From: Bacteroidota bacterium
GTDB taxonomy: Bacteria; Bacteroidota; Ignavibacteria; SZUA-365
Length of the DNA: 44,119 bases
NCBI GenBank assembly: GCA_014860565.1
Contig: JACZJN010000067.1
Location: 1-44,119, forward strand
Reading direction: 5' to 3'
Shown here: one piece after another, positions 1-41,645 of the stretch
Layout: every line of letters begins with the position of its first letter
Position numbering within the stretch: position 1 is the stretch's first letter
The notes under the pieces: generated by a model
What the model saw: the letters and a program-made list of their open reading frames with translations, nothing else
Databases searched by the model: none
What the model was told of the DNA's origin: nothing
Position numbers and translations under genes: made by a program

Positions 1-31
1 CCCGGAGACACCCCTGCGCGACACGGGGGTA

Positions 32-241
32 TCAGGCGATCGGAAAAACGCCGCAACGCGTCAGCAACGAAAATATCGCTTGCGGATTTGCCTGCGAGGG
101 TAATGCATCGGAATACCCCATGAATGATATCATCCAGCCGACGAGGAAAACGCCGATAAGAATGAGCAGCGCGACAAACACTTTCAGGAGAAATGAGAGT
201 TTTTCTTCTCTCCGCTTCAGCTCTTCGATTGATGATGTCAT
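32..241 (-). CDS. Small membrane protein of unknown function
   Basis: A complete 69-residue reading frame. Residues 1-14 are charged and polar (SSIEELKRREEK), followed by one strongly hydrophobic stretch at about 16-44 that is long enough for one membrane span. The rest is a short, mostly uncharged tail. The arrangement suggests a small inner-membrane protein with a cytoplasmic charged N-terminus. No family was recognised. The stop is inside the window, so the gene is not cut by the edge. There is no convincing Shine-Dalgarno sequence before the ATG. A 14-bp perfect inverted repeat lies just upstream (262-312). Its reality rests on the sensible charged-then-hydrophobic composition and on the absence of a competing frame. 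Confidence 0.55.
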   Translation of the reverse strand: MTSSIEELKRREEKLSFLLKVFVALLILIGVFLVGWMISFMGYSDALPSQANPQAIFSLLTRCGVFPIA

Positions 242-261
242 GGACGATCTCGCATTTAGTT

Positions 262-312
262 ACCGGGGTGCGGTTACACCTCAACGACTTACCGTGGGAA
301 CCGCACCCCGGT
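262..312. repeat. Perfect 14-bp inverted repeat, 23-nt spacer
   Basis: ACCGGGGTGCGGTT at 262-275 is matched by its exact reverse complement at 299-312. It lies in the leader of the small membrane protein gene (start 241, minus strand) and downstream of the protease terminator. There is no T-tract on either side, so it is not a standard intrinsic terminator. It could be an mRNA leader hairpin or a dyad for a DNA-binding protein. Confidence 0.6.
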
Positions 313-385
313 CCCCCAGTGAACTTTCATACATATTAATAGTGCCAGTTCGAGCCCCGTGGCCAAAATTATTTCGATTTTTTCC

Positions 386-421
386 AAAAAAAATGGCGCG
401 AACTTTCGTTTACGCCATTTT
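386..421 (-). terminator. Intrinsic terminator after the subtilisin-like protease gene
   Basis: Read on the minus strand, AAAATGGCG (421-413), a 14-nt loop and CGCCATTTT (398-390) form a 9-bp stem that runs directly into eight T residues. It begins about 30 nt after the stop codon of the protease gene at 452. Confidence 0.75.
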
Positions 422-451
422 GGCAGATATACTGACATTATGTCATGTCTT

Positions 452-3442
452 TTATTCGATAATGCGCACCGGCGCTATGAGAATCCTGGAATTTTCGTCA
501 TGGATGCGCATGAAGTACATGCCGGTGGGAAGCGACGGGAGCGCGAATACCTGCTGCTGCCTTCCGGTCGGTATGCTGCTGCCTTCCAGGCGCAGGACGA
601 AGCGGCCCTGAAGATCATAGAGATCATATTGCAGGGCTGCTTCGCGGGGGAGGAAAAGATCAAGTCGAAGCGACTGTCCTGTCCGCAGCGGCTGCGGGGC
701 GATGCCGAGCAGCGTGATGTCCGACGGACGCTGCTCCGGGGTCCGCGCATCAGTAATGTTGATCGGACGGATGACACGCGACCAGACATCGCGCGCATGC
801 GGCACGGCATCGGTAACTTCGCGGATGCTTTCGCCTGCAATCAGTGCGAATCCCACTACGAGTGTGTCGCCCGGCTGCAGGTCGACCGGACCGCTCGAGA
901 TGACCTGCGACACGTCGGTGATATCCGATACCGGCTTGATCACGCCGAGGGCGAGGGCTTTCCATTTCTCGGCTTTCGTGAAGCCGTTGTAGATGCCGAT
1001 GCGGAGCGTATCGTCGATGTCGCGGTTGTTGATGCCCCAGTACTTCACCCCGACATCATCGGCCAGCGGAAGCACGCCCACGACGACCGGGGTGCGCGGG
1101 ACACCCGTCGTATCGAGGCATATCGCCATCTGAAGGGAATCGTTGAACAGCGCGATATCGGTCTGGGAATTCGCGCCGATGTCCCAGTCGAAAAAGAGTC
1201 CGGCGTGCATCTGCTCCTGCACATTGGCGGAGACGTTGTTGATGTCGTAGCGGAGAAAAACAATGTTGCGCGTATCGTCGTCGGTGAATTCGTAGCTGCG
1301 CTGCGTGACATCGGTCTGCACGCGATAGGAAAGCGGCGCGTTCACGTCCTCGAAATGTCCGTAGCCCTGCTGCGGAGCGACAGGTCCCGGCGTGACGATG
1401 TTGTACAGTTGTTCTCCCGCGAAATCATCGCTCTGCTTGCCCCCGTCGGTGCGTGCGACGTCGACGACGAAAGGCATCTGGTTGATGACGGACCCGAGAA
1501 GAAACGCGCCTTCGAACAGCACGTTCTCGCTGCCTTTGTAATGCATTCCGGAACCGAGCACGCCGTCCATGTCGTCAAAGCCGACGTTGCCGTCGTTGGT
1601 GAGCGTCACGCGGATGTCATTGATGTCATGGTCGCGGTAACTCGGCTGCTGCACGAAGAACACGCCGCCCTGATCGTTGTATTCGCCGTCCTCGATGAGA
1701 AAAAGCAGATCCACCACGTCGTTGGGCGCGTATTCGTCGGCGAGCACGACGACGAACGGCTCAGACTCGTTGCCGACTTCGCCGAACGTGGGAATGGTCC
1801 CAGCATGGAAGCTGCCCTGCTCGATGGTCAGAAGCGGATTCGACGACGATAGCGTGATCTGCGCATCGGTTGTCGGTTCGAGCGTGTTGCGCCAGCGCAT
1901 GGTCACGACCAGTCTTTCTCCCTGGTCCGGAATGCCGTCGCCGTTGCCGTAGAGCGTGTCGGAAAGCGACCAGGTCGCCAGGCTCACCGCGGGAGAACGC
2001 TCGGTGAGGGCGCGGAAGGCGTTGATGCGTCCCTTGCCGATTTTCGATTTCAATCTCGAGGACTGCAGGTGGTCGATGGGATCGGAGGTGACCCGAATCT
2101 GCTCGAAAATCTGCTCGGGACTGTACTCGGGATGCACGCTTTTTACTAGCGCCGCAAGTCCCGCGACCAGCGGCGAGGCCATCGAGGTGCCCGTCGCTTT
2201 CACGTAGCTGGACGGAGTGGTGATGGAACAGCTGAGAATGTCGGTTCCCGGGGCGGATACATCGACCCACGGACCGTAGGTCGAGCTGGGGTTCACCTTG
2301 TCGTCGGTCGTGGTGTTCGCGACACACAGCACGTTGGGATAGGCACCGGGGGTGTGGAAACTTTCCGTCCCGGTATTTCCCGCCGCGACGACGACGATCG
2401 CGCCCTTGGAAATGGCATAGTCGATCTGTTCCTTCTGGCTCTCGAGATAGCCGGGACCGCCCCAACTGCAGTTGATGACGTCCGCGCCGTTGTCCGCGGC
2501 GTACACGATGCCGTCGTAACCGCGTATGATCGAAGGTGCGTACACGTCCGATCCGCACTTGACGGCCATGATCTTGCAGTGCATCGCCAGTCCCGCCACG
2601 CCTTTGCCGTTGTTGCCCCGCGCGGCCGCGATGCCGGCAACGTGCGTTCCGTGGAAATGGCCTTTCGTGGTCGGGGACGGATCTCCGTCATAATACGTTC
2701 CCCCGTTCAGCAGGCTGTTCCCCACGAAATCGATCCCGATCACGTCGTCGATATAGCCGTTGCCGTCGTTGTCGATGCTGTCGATGTCGGCCGGGGTGTA
2801 GACGCCGTCATGGTCGATATCCTCGATGGGATTGACCCAGATATTCTGGCTGATGTCTTCATGGCTCCAGAGGACTCCGCTGTCGACGATGCCGATCACG
2901 ACGCTGCTGTCGCCGGTGGTGATGTCCCAGGCTTTCTCCGCCTCGATCAGCGTATGCTGATACTGCTCGCCGAAGCGCGGATCGTCGGGGGTAAGATCCA
3001 GGTACTGCACGATTTCCGGCTCGGCGTATTCCACGTCGGGCAGGGCCGCGAAAGCGCGTGCGACCTCGAGCGGACTCACCGCCGCATCGAATTCGACGCG
3101 GTACATGCGTTGCAGGGCGATCTCCGAGCCGTCGGCGCGAAACCGCGTCGCATGCGACGGATACATCTGCGTCATCGTCCGCACCCCGAATTGCGCCAGC
3201 AGCGGCTGTACCGACGACATCCCCACCGCATGCTTGCTCAGCTGCTGCTCCCTTTCGCGGATGAACTTGACGATCACGCTGCCGGGGACGAACTCGGCGT
3301 CCGCGGGCAGCTGATCGAGCAGACTGCGGGATGATGAAACCTTGGGCGGCTTGGATTTCCGGGGCGTGCCGTCTCCCCCTGCGAGAAGCACCGTTACAGG
3401 AAGCATGAGGAGTGCGCAGAACAGACAGGCGAGTCGCTTCAT
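452..3442 (-). CDS. Secreted subtilisin-like (S8) serine protease with T9SS type A sorting domain
   Basis: A 996-residue secreted peptidase. A Sec signal peptide occupies about residues 1-22, followed by a prodomain-like region (about 45-150). The S8 catalytic domain (about 165-480) has an intact triad: Asp187 (GIVDSGV), His264 (HGTHVAG) and Ser420 (GTSMASP). The oxyanion-hole Asn356 (AAGNTG) is also present. An Asp-rich segment at about 208-233 looks like a calcium-binding insertion. The remaining ~500 residues hold beta-rich accessory domains, and the last ~85 residues form a T9SS type A sorting domain ending in GMYFMRIHDENS...RIIE. The ATG is preceded by GGAG six bases upstream. By family, the protein should be exported by Sec, moved across the outer membrane by T9SS, and act as a surface or extracellular endopeptidase. 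The substrate cannot be read from sequence. Confidence 0.95.
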   Translation of the reverse strand: MKRLACLFCALLMLPVTVLLAGGDGTPRKSKPPKVSSSRSLLDQLPADAEFVPGSVIVKFIREREQQLSKHAVGMSSVQPLLAQFGVRTMTQMYPSHATRFRADGSEIALQRMYRVEFDAAVSPLEVARAFAALPDVEYAEPEIVQYLDLTPDDPRFGEQYQHTLIEAEKAWDITTGDSSVVIGIVDSGVLWSHEDISQNIWVNPIEDIDHDGVYTPADIDSIDNDGNGYIDDVIGIDFVGNSLLNGGTYYDGDPSPTTKGHFHGTHVAGIAAARGNNGKGVAGLAMHCKIMAVKCGSDVYAPSIIRGYDGIVYAADNGADVINCSWGGPGYLESQKEQIDYAISKGAIVVVAAGNTGTESFHTPGAYPNVLCVANTTTDDKVNPSSTYGPWVDVSAPGTDILSCSITTPSSYVKATGTSMASPLVAGLAALVKSVHPEYSPEQIFEQIRVTSDPIDHLQSSRLKSKIGKGRINAFRALTERSPAVSLATWSLSDTLYGNGDGIPDQGERLVVTMRWRNTLEPTTDAQITLSSSNPLLTIEQGSFHAGTIPTFGEVGNESEPFVVVLADEYAPNDVVDLLFLIEDGEYNDQGGVFFVQQPSYRDHDINDIRVTLTNDGNVGFDDMDGVLGSGMHYKGSENVLFEGAFLLGSVINQMPFVVDVARTDGGKQSDDFAGEQLYNIVTPGPVAPQQGYGHFEDVNAPLSYRVQTDVTQRSYEFTDDDTRNIVFLRYDINNVSANVQEQMHAGLFFDWDIGANSQTDIALFNDSLQMAICLDTTGVPRTPVVVGVLPLADDVGVKYWGINNRDIDDTLRIGIYNGFTKAEKWKALALGVIKPVSDITDVSQVISSGPVDLQPGDTLVVGFALIAGESIREVTDAVPHARDVWSRVIRPINITDARTPEQRPSDITLLGIAPQPLRTGQSLRLDLFLPREAALQYDLYDLQGRFVLRLEGSSIPTGRQQQVFALPSLPTGMYFMRIHDENSRILIAPVRIIE

Positions 3443-38147: not shown

Positions 38148-39347
38148 TTATTCCAGTGTTGCAAGCAGGGCGCTGTACCCCCTGGCATGCATTCTCCATG
38201 AGTATTGCTCGCATACGCGACCGCGCGCCTCCAGGGCCTGATGCTGCAGCACACGCAGCCGACCAAGCACTTCGAGGATCGCGCGGGCGATTTCCTCGGG
38301 CGAACTGCGTGCAAGCGGCCGTACCGCGGCAGCGAGGGCGACGAGGTCCGGCACGACTCCCGCCTTCGCGCCTGCGATCAGCGGAACGCCAGCCGCCGCC
38401 GCCTCGAGAGCGACGAGTCCGAAGGATTCATGCTGCGAGGGTTGAACGGCGATATGCTGCGCGCACATCAGGTTGTGCAGCGCGGACTGCGGCAGCCATC
38501 CCGCGAAGTGAACGGCTTCCGCAATCCCGAGATTCCGCGCAAGCTGCTGCAAGGCAGGCCGGAGGAAGCCGTCCCCTGCCACGGTGAGACGCAGGTCGAC
38601 ACCCTCCTCGCGGCGCACGCGCTCGACCGCCCGCAGCAGCGGGTCGACATTCTTGCTCGCCAGATCCAGCCGCGAAACGCAGATGCAATGCAGCGGAGGG
38701 GGAATGGGAGGGTCGGCGGCAGGGAGGTCATCTTCTACCGCAAGGGGAATGACGTGCACGCGCTTCCCCGGCAGCGCCTGTTTCATCTCTGCTTCCTGTA
38801 CGCCGCACTGCGCGATGACGGCATCGGCCGACACGAGCTGTTCGAGCAGCCAGTCGCGCAAGGGAGTTTGTCCCTCCTCCGGCATCGAGCCCAGCGTTTC
38901 ATTTTCATCCATCCAGAGCGGGACGCCATTTACAGACGCGGCCATGCGGGCGAGGGGGGCAGCGGCATGCAAATAATGCAGCAGCACGGCGTCAAAATGA
39001 TGTCGATGGATCAGTGAGCGCAGCCAGCGGCTCTGCTGCCAGAGATACAGGCGTGGATTGATCCGCCATCCCAGCAGGTCGGGAAGTGTGAAGCAGAAGC
39101 GATGATGCACAGCGACGTGCGGGAACAGCTGCGCTCTCTTCGGCAGTGCACGCAACACGCGGAACCAGCGGCGATCATAGCCGCCGAACGCGAGATTCTT
39201 CAGACGCGGCAACATGCGGACAAGGGAGACGACCGTAACATCCGCAACGCCATCGAGGGAACGCAGATGCGAAAGCATCCATGCGGCGGGACTGCGATCG
39301 GGATCGATCGGATACTTGTCGGTTATTATCAGGATGCGCTGCATCAT
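38148..39347 (-). CDS. GT4-family glycosyltransferase
   Basis: A 399-residue GT-B fold glycosyltransferase. The N-terminal half contains RILIITDKYPIDPDRSPAAW and the acceptor-side helices. The C-terminal half has the retaining GT4 signature: CVSRLDLASKNVDPLLRAV, LTVAGDGFLRPALQ and the E-x7-E motif in HESFGLVALEA. Members transfer a sugar from a nucleotide-sugar donor to a lipid- or polysaccharide-linked acceptor in the cytoplasm. The donor and acceptor cannot be told from sequence. It starts 9 nt after the AroB-AroA fusion stop and is probably cotranscribed with it. An adjacent second Met at codon 2 is an alternative start. Confidence 0.9.
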   Translation of the reverse strand: MMQRILIITDKYPIDPDRSPAAWMLSHLRSLDGVADVTVVSLVRMLPRLKNLAFGGYDRRWFRVLRALPKRAQLFPHVAVHHRFCFTLPDLLGWRINPRLYLWQQSRWLRSLIHRHHFDAVLLHYLHAAAPLARMAASVNGVPLWMDENETLGSMPEEGQTPLRDWLLEQLVSADAVIAQCGVQEAEMKQALPGKRVHVIPLAVEDDLPAADPPIPPPLHCICVSRLDLASKNVDPLLRAVERVRREEGVDLRLTVAGDGFLRPALQQLARNLGIAEAVHFAGWLPQSALHNLMCAQHIAVQPSQHESFGLVALEAAAAGVPLIAGAKAGVVPDLVALAAAVRPLARSSPEEIARAILEVLGRLRVLQHQALEARGRVCEQYSWRMHARGYSALLATLE

Positions 39348-39356
39348 GCTGCTAAC

Positions 39357-41645
39357 CTATCCGTGTGTCCGCACGGACCAGCCGGCGCGACGAGCATCGT
39401 CCCAGAAACGGGGGTAGGACTTCGTTACTGTCCACGGGCGGTCGAGCAGAACTGCGCCCTGACTCACCAGCGTCAGAAGGGTGCCTGCCATCACCAGGCG
39501 ATGATCTCCATGCGTTGAAAAAAGAACATCCTGCCGGACTGTGGCGTTCGGGCGCAGCAGCAGTCCGTCACTGCGGGCCTCGGCATCCACACCCACCTCC
39601 CGGAGTGTCGCGACGAAATCGTCGATGCGGTTGGATTCCTTGTTCCGCAGATGCGCGGCGCCGGTGAAAGTGACGGGATGCGCCGCGGTCAGTGCGGCGA
39701 TCGTCAATACCGGAAGCAGATCCGGGACCAGTGAGAGATCGATTGTCTGCGGAGCGCGACGTGCCTCTCGCAATGCCGTGAGATAGCGTTCGACGGCGCC
39801 GTCGGGCTGGCGTGGGATGCGTGCTTTCTGTCCCGCCTCGATCGGGTGTCCCAGATAATGCGCGATGCTCCACACCGCGCTGGAGCTTTCGTCGGCCTCG
39901 ATGTCGATGGTGAGTTTCTCGTTGAGACGCTCGGTCTGGTTGAGCGCGATCAGATCCCCATGCGCGATGATTTCCACGCCTGCCTGTTCGAGCATCGCGA
40001 TGGTCAGGTCGAGGTAGGCACGGCTGACCGGCTCGCCGAGCAGACGGATGGTGAAGGGAAACTCCGCGCCCACGGCCAGCAATGCGAGCGCCGAAACATA
40101 CTGGGACGACAACGACGGATCGATGGAAAACACCTGCGGCATCTGCTGCCATCCCCGCACGACATACCCCTGTCCGGAGAGATCCCGAAATTCCTCGATC
40201 GTCGCACCGCCGCTGCGCAGGGAACGCAACAGGGCGTCGTGCGGACGCTGCATGAGTGCGGGAGAAAGCAGAAGCTTGGTCGGCTTCACATTGGTGCAGC
40301 AGAGCGCGAGAAGGAAGCGGAAGGTGGTGCCGCCTTCACATACAAATACCGTACGCTCGCCCTCTTCCATACCTGGACGGAAATCGCGATTGAGATTGTC
40401 GACCACATAGCCCCGGGCGGTTTCCTCGATGGGGTAGCCGAGGCCGCGCAGCGCGCGCAGCATGCAGCGCACATCGTCGGCATCGCTCCGGCCGTTGATC
40501 ACCGTGCGTCCCATCCGCTGGGCGGCGATAATGAGCGCCCGGTTCAGTTCGGATTTGCTGGCCTCGATGCACAGCGGCACCGCGCGAGGCGAACGAAGAC
40601 GGACGCGTACCTGAACGCCGGCGAACCAAGCGGCGGTGCGGCGAAGCGCGGCGATCCAGTCCGCTGCGGTCAGGTCGGCTGTGACGACGGGATCTCCGAT
40701 ATCGCGTAGGAGCACGGAACCCAGATGTCCGTCACTGTGCTTCTTGTCGCGCAGAATCGCGGCCTCCAGCACGCCGTCTTCCGGCAGCGCCGGCAGGGAG
40801 ATAAGCAGCGGGAACAGGGTTTCGCGGCAATGTCTTGCCGCCTCCTCGGCCATGCCCCGTGATTGCGCCAGATCGAGTCCGGCGGCCATACCCCATGCGA
40901 CCGCGGCGCCATGGCTGACGCCGGTCGTGAGTTCCAGCGCATGCGCAAGCGTGTGGCCGAGATTGAGTACGGTGCGGAGGCCCTGCTCTTCGTACGGATC
41001 CAGCCCCACGATGTGATCCTTGATGCCGACAGCGTACTCGATCATCCGGCCGAGGCGGTCGCTGACCTCCGCGAAGGGAGCGTAGGTCAGCGCTTCGATT
41101 TCTTCACCTGTAAGCGCGCGCACACTTTTCGCATCACCGAGCCAGAGTGCCTTGAGCAGTTCGACCATGCCGTCGCGCCGCAGCGTTACCGGTAGCGTGG
41201 AGAGGAATTCCTCCACCAGCAGCACGCGTTCCGCGGGATAAAACGTTCCGAGCTGATTCTTCGTGCTGCCGAGATTCACCGCCGTTTTTCCGCCGTGCGC
41301 CGAATCCACCATGGCGACCATGGTCGTCGGGACATGCCAGAGTCCGACCCCGCGCCAGAGAATGCTCGCAAGAAAACCGACCGCATCGCCCACGCTGCCG
41401 CCGCCCACGGCCACAAGCGTCAACGGCTTGCTCGCGCGGCGGTGGAGCACATGGCCGGCGAGTTCCTCGATGCCCGCGAGCGTCTTGAGTTTTTCACCGG
41501 CATCCACGAGCACGGGATGATCGAAGCGCTCAAGGATCTCCTGCGGCAGCCTCCGATCGGCAACGACCACGGCGTGTACCGGCAGGGAAAGGTCGTCCAG
41601 TGTGGCGATGCGTTCAAGCACGCTGCGGCTGTCTTGTTCCTGCAT
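39357..41645 (-). CDS. aroBA: Fused 3-dehydroquinate synthase / EPSP synthase (AroB-AroA)
   Basis: A 762-residue bifunctional shikimate-pathway protein. Residues ~20-325 are 3-dehydroquinate synthase with NAD-binding GGGSVGD (82-88) and the GGKTAVN loop. Its zinc ligands are Glu162, His231 and His245, with catalytic Lys165 and His235. Residues ~350-762 are EPSP synthase: SKSELNR (Lys364, Arg369), SLSSQY (513-515), VPDLLP (Asp642), LRNKESNR (Arg667, Glu670) and DHRLVM (Arg716). Lys742 lies in VTKSYP. All expected active-site residues of both halves are present. The start at 41645 has AGGA nine bases upstream. A 25-codon extension to 41720 runs through low-complexity, noncoding-looking DNA, but would restore the usual distance from the N-terminus to GGGSVGD, so the start carries some doubt. 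It lies 105 nt downstream of a T9SS gene. Confidence 0.95.
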   Translation of the reverse strand: MQEQDSRSVLERIATLDDLSLPVHAVVVADRRLPQEILERFDHPVLVDAGEKLKTLAGIEELAGHVLHRRASKPLTLVAVGGGSVGDAVGFLASILWRGVGLWHVPTTMVAMVDSAHGGKTAVNLGSTKNQLGTFYPAERVLLVEEFLSTLPVTLRRDGMVELLKALWLGDAKSVRALTGEEIEALTYAPFAEVSDRLGRMIEYAVGIKDHIVGLDPYEEQGLRTVLNLGHTLAHALELTTGVSHGAAVAWGMAAGLDLAQSRGMAEEAARHCRETLFPLLISLPALPEDGVLEAAILRDKKHSDGHLGSVLLRDIGDPVVTADLTAADWIAALRRTAAWFAGVQVRVRLRSPRAVPLCIEASKSELNRALIIAAQRMGRTVINGRSDADDVRCMLRALRGLGYPIEETARGYVVDNLNRDFRPGMEEGERTVFVCEGGTTFRFLLALCCTNVKPTKLLLSPALMQRPHDALLRSLRSGGATIEEFRDLSGQGYVVRGWQQMPQVFSIDPSLSSQYVSALALLAVGAEFPFTIRLLGEPVSRAYLDLTIAMLEQAGVEIIAHGDLIALNQTERLNEKLTIDIEADESSSAVWSIAHYLGHPIEAGQKARIPRQPDGAVERYLTALREARRAPQTIDLSLVPDLLPVLTIAALTAAHPVTFTGAAHLRNKESNRIDDFVATLREVGVDAEARSDGLLLRPNATVRQDVLFSTHGDHRLVMAGTLLTLVSQGAVLLDRPWTVTKSYPRFWDDARRAGWSVRTHG

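Follow-up and report, generated by a model that had tools for sequence, protein, structure and literature searches.

We have identified a bacterial gene fusion, here named aroBA, that joins 3-dehydroquinate synthase (DHQS) to 5-enolpyruvylshikimate-3-phosphate (EPSP) synthase (EPSPS) in contig JACZJN010000067.1 of an Ignavibacteria genome (phylum Bacteroidota; assembly GCA_014860565.1). Positions 1 to 44,119 of the contig (forward strand) are referred to as the window. aroBA very probably encodes a bifunctional enzyme that is the cell's sole source of steps 2 and 6 of the shikimate pathway, works with a trifunctional protein, aroKDE, and goes back to one fusion event. aroKDE is encoded outside the window and carries shikimate kinase (SK), a type I-like 3-dehydroquinate dehydratase (DHQase or DHQD) and shikimate dehydrogenase (SDH). 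As aroBA covers steps 2 and 6 and the co-occurring aroKDE covers steps 5, 3 and 4, the five domains of the eukaryotic AROM protein are spread over two polypeptides that keep the AROM order. The literature presents the joining of these five central steps into one protein as a trait of fungi and protists; prokaryotes are said to rely on separate enzymes, with a few bifunctional exceptions (PMC6851490, PMC10792529), among which DHQD-SK of Clostridia is named (PMC10792529).

The aroBA gene and its two halves

aroBA occupies 39357..41645 on the minus strand and has orthologues in 31 genomes. The initial annotation, which gave no strand, had described one continuous AroB-AroA frame, and this is what we find: the frame opens with the ATG at 41645-41643, closes with the stop at 39359-39357, has no internal stops and encodes 762 amino acids. 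Pfam domains of both enzymes follow in the order of the first two AROM domains, again as annotated, and all exceed their gathering scores: DHQ_synthase (aa 46-153), DHQS_C (159-280) and EPSP_synthase (360-749; 168 bits). Residue mapping to the A. nidulans AROM DHQS and a fold match place the DHQS half at 40641..41645 (minus strand, aa 1-335), and mapping to E. coli AroA with a fold match places the EPSPS half at 39360..40610 (minus strand, aa 346-762). Between them lies a fast-evolving linker of about 10 residues (40611..40640, minus strand, about aa 336-345), the fold ranges being 3..342 and 342..762. Fungal AROM is the best solved-structure match by sequence, and one continuous alignment to AROM 89-837 spans both halves. 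An AlphaFold2 monomer model built on 12 orthologues reached a predicted local distance difference test score (pLDDT) of 85.9 and a predicted template modelling score (pTM) of 0.88.

The window genome is a draft (4.75 Mb, 98% complete, 223 contigs), which could be taken to favor an assembly chimera or a frameshift. We give this explanation practically no weight, as the same frame is present in independent assemblies, including the single-contig chromosomes G007, G072, G073 and G080, and orthologues align straight across the DHQS/EPSPS junction; the independent and single-contig genomes rule out both kinds of artefact. Single-frame, end-to-end orthologues share 48-83% identity within the family and order and 40-46% in other lineages. 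Differences from the nearest relative at the first, second and third codon positions amount to 11/6/48% in the DHQS half, 12/8/48% in the EPSPS half and 27/47/40% in the linker, a pattern that indicates purifying selection on both halves, with only the linker loose.

The catalytic residues of both halves, which the initial annotation had read as being in place, are indeed intact. In the DHQS half, all 18 of the 18 A. nidulans positions tested, which concern NAD, zinc and substrate, are present in the window protein (E51, K54, D87, R98, D114, K120, K129, N130, E162, K165, K209, R224, L227, N228, H231, H235, H245 and K301) and nearly invariant over 18 diverse fusions. These include the zinc ligands E162, H231 and H245, all of which are present, as is H235. 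Sixteen substrate residues are intact in the EPSPS half (K364, S365, R369, T440, R467, S513, S514, Q515, Y544, D642, K669, E670, R673, H715, R716 and K742), corresponding to K22, S23, R27, T97, R124, S169, S170, Q171, Y200, D313, K340, E341, R344, H385, R386 and K411 of E. coli AroA. The catalytic residues of this half are likewise nearly invariant across 18 diverse fusions; at the equivalents of E. coli AroA N94, P101 and N336 the window protein has E, F and H. In the AlphaFold2 model, the DHQS half matches the bacterial DHQ synthases 6lla/3qbe (Z 32.5 over 326 residues) and the EPSPS half matches the E. coli-type EPSP synthase 3nvs (Z 44.9 over 398 residues).

The N-terminus of the DHQS half had been noted as short, and this is a real feature, conserved in every fusion. 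Aligned with E. coli, about 14 residues are missing at this terminus and the first alpha-beta unit is shortened. The first 52 positions of the NCBIfam profile TIGR01357 find no match in the protein, consistent with the short N-terminus. The modelled DHQS fold is nevertheless complete.

The window genome has no second DHQ_synthase match elsewhere, and its sole other PF00275 match, on contig C23, reads by eye as MurA. These genome-wide profile matches rule out a hidden second aroB or aroA, and aroBA is, as far as the profiles tell, the only aroB and the only aroA of this genome. The initial annotation had proposed a search for separate copies, and had named a frameshift or assembly join between the halves, or stand-alone aroB and aroA beside a degenerate fusion, as grounds for abandoning its claim; neither situation was found.

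The probable trifunctional partner and its linkage to aroBA

The non-consecutive nature of steps 2 and 6, which had been raised as a puzzle, is largely answered by aroKDE. This gene was located by a pathway query as one frame next to aroC that matches both AroE and AroK. In the window genome (G000) it lies at C15:31486-33306 (equivalent to L175:2987-4807) and encodes 606 amino acids in the order SK, DHQase type I-like, SDH; the adjoining aroC lies at C15:30443-31465. Pfam recognizes SKI and Shikimate_dh_N, the latter just below cut-off in the window genome and above it in relatives. The middle domain is called DHQase type I-like because it has no Pfam match, and a search of the PDB with this domain alone returned no match. 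In the aroKDE model (pLDDT 92.2) the middle domain has the TIM-barrel fold of type I DHQase. Residues 167-606 of the model match the Arabidopsis DHQase-SDH 6bmb (Z 23.5, root-mean-square deviation 3.1, 414 residues), and the model also matches the C-terminal halves of AROM (6hqv, 7tbv). The aroKDE family profile aligns from SK into the beginning of the AROM DHQase. In an alignment made by eye, the invariant K294 and H261 stand opposite K170 and H143 of E. coli, the Schiff-base lysine and the catalytic histidine. Because type II DHQase was detected in 0/16 genomes of the window's order, and because E. coli AroD, AroE and AroK queries gave no match in the window genome other than aroKDE, steps 3, 4 and 5 are most likely carried out by this protein.

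The two fusions are closely associated. aroBA is present in 12/12 genomes of the window's family and in one genome of another family of the same order, the remaining sampled genomes of the class having separate aroA and aroB genes or neither, and at least 18 of 57 genomes of Bradymonadia carry it, some of them closed. aroKDE was found in all 31 aroBA genomes and in 2 of 85 genomes without aroBA. Among relatives in the window's lineage the counts are 13/13 with aroBA versus 0/48 without; in Bradymonadia they are 18/18 versus 2/37. Three Bradymonadia loci (L055, L056 and L171) hold an operon in the order aroBA-aroKDE-aroC, and in the first two the aroBA and aroKDE frames are translationally coupled by a 4-bp ATGA overlap. 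At loci L176, L177 and L185 the operon runs aroKDE-aroC-aroBA. In the window genome, aroBA and aroKDE are on different contigs and aroBA stands outside the aroKDE-aroC cluster.

Proposed function and competing explanations

We infer catalysis by each domain of aroBA and aroKDE. The N-terminal half of aroBA would convert 3-deoxy-D-arabino-heptulosonate 7-phosphate (DAHP) to 3-dehydroquinate (step 2), and the C-terminal half would form EPSP from shikimate-3-phosphate and phosphoenolpyruvate (step 6). aroKDE would deliver the intermediate steps 5, 3 and 4, the two proteins together doing the work of one AROM split between EPSPS and SK. Dimerisation is expected to occur through DHQS, as in AROM (PMC6851490, PMC9074039). 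The main benefit would presumably be that the fused steps are supplied in a fixed 1:1 ratio, and AroBA and AroKDE may form a transient or loose complex. The fusion probably arose when neighboring aroB and aroA genes lost the stop that separated them, and it was probably transferred once between the Bacteroidota order and Bradymonadia. AROM is reported to gain no throughput in vitro relative to its separate domains (PMC9074039), and because of this, a benefit through dosage and shared regulation, or through loose association of AroBA with AroKDE, is a better guess than channelling.

Several points weigh against this proposal. Two Bradymonadia genomes (G074 and G075) have aroKDE with no detected aroBA, and the Fisher test for co-occurrence (p ~1e-12) overstates independence, the genomes being related. 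Co-transcription of the two fusions is not general, because they lie on different contigs in the window genome. Given the in vitro result for AROM (PMC9074039), a benefit of the fusion is here an assumption. No tested domain of aroBA or aroKDE reaches its NCBIfam equivalog cut-off: the DHQS half scores 226.6 bits against 305 for TIGR01357 (aroB) and the EPSPS half 218.6 bits against 287.25 for TIGR01356 (aroA), these cut-offs being scoring thresholds and not biochemical traits. The middle domain of aroKDE has no match to Pfam DHquinase_I, hhalign profile comparison of it with E. coli AroD gave nothing, and its putative DHQase activity rests on the modelled fold and a Lys/His pair aligned by eye.

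The score below the aroB cut-off could also mean that the DHQS half is another sugar-phosphate cyclase and that the true AroB was overlooked. The fold is common to members of the superfamily, and Bradymonadia carry an additional, different DHQS-like protein. This explanation is nonetheless very improbable: every tested DHQS active-site residue is kept, including R224/L227/N228, aroB is the top-scoring NCBIfam model, above the cyclase model TIGR04425, the window genome offers no other DHQ_synthase match, and aroA, aroC and the KDE protein are all present to use the DHQS product.

A neutral explanation deserves more attention, in which the loss of a stop codon was harmless, the fusion has no mechanistic meaning and the two proteins act separately and diffusively. 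It agrees with the non-consecutive steps, the in-frame neighboring aroB-aroA genes of other Bacteroidota, the short and unconserved linker and the broken-up operon of the window genome. Against it, at least 31 genomes from two phylum-level lineages have kept the fusion, no case of re-splitting was seen, and the other AROM steps are always fused in a second protein. We therefore regard neutrality as possible but not favored, and a functional AroBA-AroKDE pair as the better account.

Origin, distribution and relation to AROM

The initial annotation had suggested trees of each half against AROM. In both half-trees the fusions form one clade (DHQS 100/100, EPSPS 100/99), and in the EPSPS tree those of the Bacteroidota order are a clade (99/96) beside those of Bradymonadia (82/79). 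This fits a single origin of the bacterial fusion and one transfer between the two groups, in one direction or the other. The relation to AROM was answered differently by the two halves. With three fungal AROMs sampled, the EPSPS tree groups AROM with E. coli AroA (94/93), and the approximately unbiased (AU) test rejected a fusion+AROM clade (p-AU 0.012; 0.032 in another run); with the Myxococcota sequence of locus L170 added, this clade was not rejected (p 0.10). In the DHQS tree a fusion+AROM clade was not rejected either (p-AU 0.27). The AROM DHQS scores 198 bits against a gamma-proteobacterial AroB (3okf), compared with 106 bits between the aroBA fusion and AROM. Because the joint clade is rejected by the EPSPS tests run on the fusions without L170, and the DHQS of AROM resembles gamma-proteobacterial AroB more than the fusion resembles AROM, independent assembly of the bacterial fusions appears likelier than descent shared with AROM. 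The AROM likeness of aroBA, as judged from sequence, is one of order and composition, and its EPSPS half argues against a shared fused ancestor.

Such an ancestor would imply either that AROM is a joined bacterial operon or that an acquired AROM was split between EPSPS and SK. The five domains stand in AROM order, which would be matched by chance in 1/120 cases, and Bradymonadia aroBA-aroKDE reproduces the full order with an overlap of as little as 4 bp. Searches by fold or by sequence, started from either protein, also rank AROM first, as AROM covers every domain, and the DHQS tree is not in conflict. The placement of the AROM EPSPS, the bit scores of the DHQS half and a bacterial DHQase domain too divergent for Pfam all point the other way, and we consider shared ancestry unlikely. 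It is similarly improbable that the aroBA-aroKDE pair is the bacterial form behind eukaryotic AROM, or a split AROM descendant; if true, AROM would have come from a bacterial operon by fusion at the EPSPS/SK junction, and living bacteria could be used to test how it originated. Bacteria of two distant lineages divide the five predicted activities between two multidomain proteins that are inherited together and keep the AROM order. They offer a naturally occurring intermediate arrangement in which to ask why there is an AROM at all and whether its order was selected (convergence) or inherited, and a test case for whether non-consecutive fusions bring benefits beyond what channelling explains.

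Compared with eukaryotic AROM/Aro1 (C. thermophilum 6hqv, C. albicans 7u5s), the bacterial pair has the same five activities, with DHQS-EPSPS in aroBA and SK-DHQase I-SDH in its partner. It differs in being bacterial, in using two genes and polypeptides in every genome examined, in its very divergent DHQase domain and in an EPSPS half that lies apart from AROM in trees. The AROM domain order holds within each protein, and across both genes in L055, L056 and L171; in the taxonomic order of the window genome the genes are arranged differently. Known prokaryotic fusions of AroB or AroA, namely AroK-AroB (NF010556, NF010627), AroA-Cmk (NF008816) and TyrA-AroA (NF011381), share one homologous domain with aroBA, but have another partner and order and no AroB-AroA join, and aroBA scores far under their cut-offs. 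The clostridial DHQD-SK enzyme (PMC10792529, CASP15 target T1180) is likewise a prokaryotic shikimate fusion that joins two steps which do not follow each other (3 and 5) and uses a type I DHQase, but it is bifunctional, whereas the partner described here is a trifunctional SK-DHQD-SDH. The plant DHQase-SDH (Arabidopsis 2o7s/6bmb) matches the fold of aroKDE over 414 residues at 17-18% identity and has no SK domain. NCBIfam, which covers AroK-AroB, AroA-Cmk and TyrA-AroA, has no model for the aroBA or aroKDE architecture. We found no report of a bacterial DHQS-EPSPS or SK-DHQD-SDH in a literature search that left most subscription papers outside its reach; two-domain bacterial EPSPS proteins have been mentioned with the partner unnamed (PMC9394408). 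Because two or three steps sit on each protein and none of the tested domains reaches its curated NCBIfam cut-off, automatic pathway reconstruction could score genomes with aroBA and aroKDE as lacking steps 2-6.

Scanning 84,980 species genomes for two short conserved motifs revealed aroBA in Bradymonadales as well (Lujinxingia vulgaris, Lujinxingiaceae and further metagenome-assembled genomes, MAGs). The distribution is a lower bound, because such a scan would miss fusions with different motifs. No other true fusions were found among 395 evenly drawn Bacteroidota, and a Myxococcota-wide scan gave no additional aroBA genomes. Seven further "fusions" from the Bacteroidota phylum scan were rejected, each being a pair of neighboring genes kept apart by stop codons.

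In these seven rejected Bacteroidota pairs (L148-L154), aroB and aroA adjoin in frame and in the same order but are unfused. Some lie beside aroC or DAHP synthase, and a fusion like aroBA could plausibly arise from such pairs. The nearest outsider in the EPSPS tree is the Myxococcota AroA of L170 (99/96, long branch), which adjoins an AroK-AroB gene. This locus (G701:C82) holds an aroKB - aroA - aroC cluster, and no unfused sequences stand closer to the fusion in the trees than its AroB and AroA, both on long branches; it may be a pre-fusion or rearranged state. The genome was rejected as an aroBA carrier, having an AroK-AroB frame and a separate AroA.

In genomes G013, G014 and G015, which belong to a third family of the order that includes the window genome, no aroA, aroB, aroC, aroKDE or type II DHQase was detected, an apparent loss of the shikimate pathway as judged from these searches; families f15, f16 and f17 of the class are also without aroA and aroB matches. 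One Lujinxingiaceae MAG has a second aroBA copy (L057:7995-10229) that is changed at the equivalents of DHQS R130, K152, N162 and N268 and of EPSPS K340 and R344. It may be a paralogue in decay or put to another use, or may reflect an error of binning or sequencing. The second DHQS-like match in Bradymonadia was rejected as a spare AroB, the motif CDA(S/A)I.HKQ replacing VDS..GGKT. Four Bradymonadales loci (L102-L105) encode this protein, a nucleotidyltransferase - DHQS-like cyclase of 620-700 aa that adjoins a short-chain dehydrogenase/reductase (SDR) and a sugar-kinase-like gene, and look like a conserved uncharacterised cyclitol-type pathway.

Downstream of aroBA in the window, 9 bp past its stop codon, lies a glycosyltransferase-like gene (38148..39347, minus strand), which is not a shikimate gene and was recognized by similarity assessed by eye. 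A similar gene, also judged by eye, follows aroBA in several relatives.
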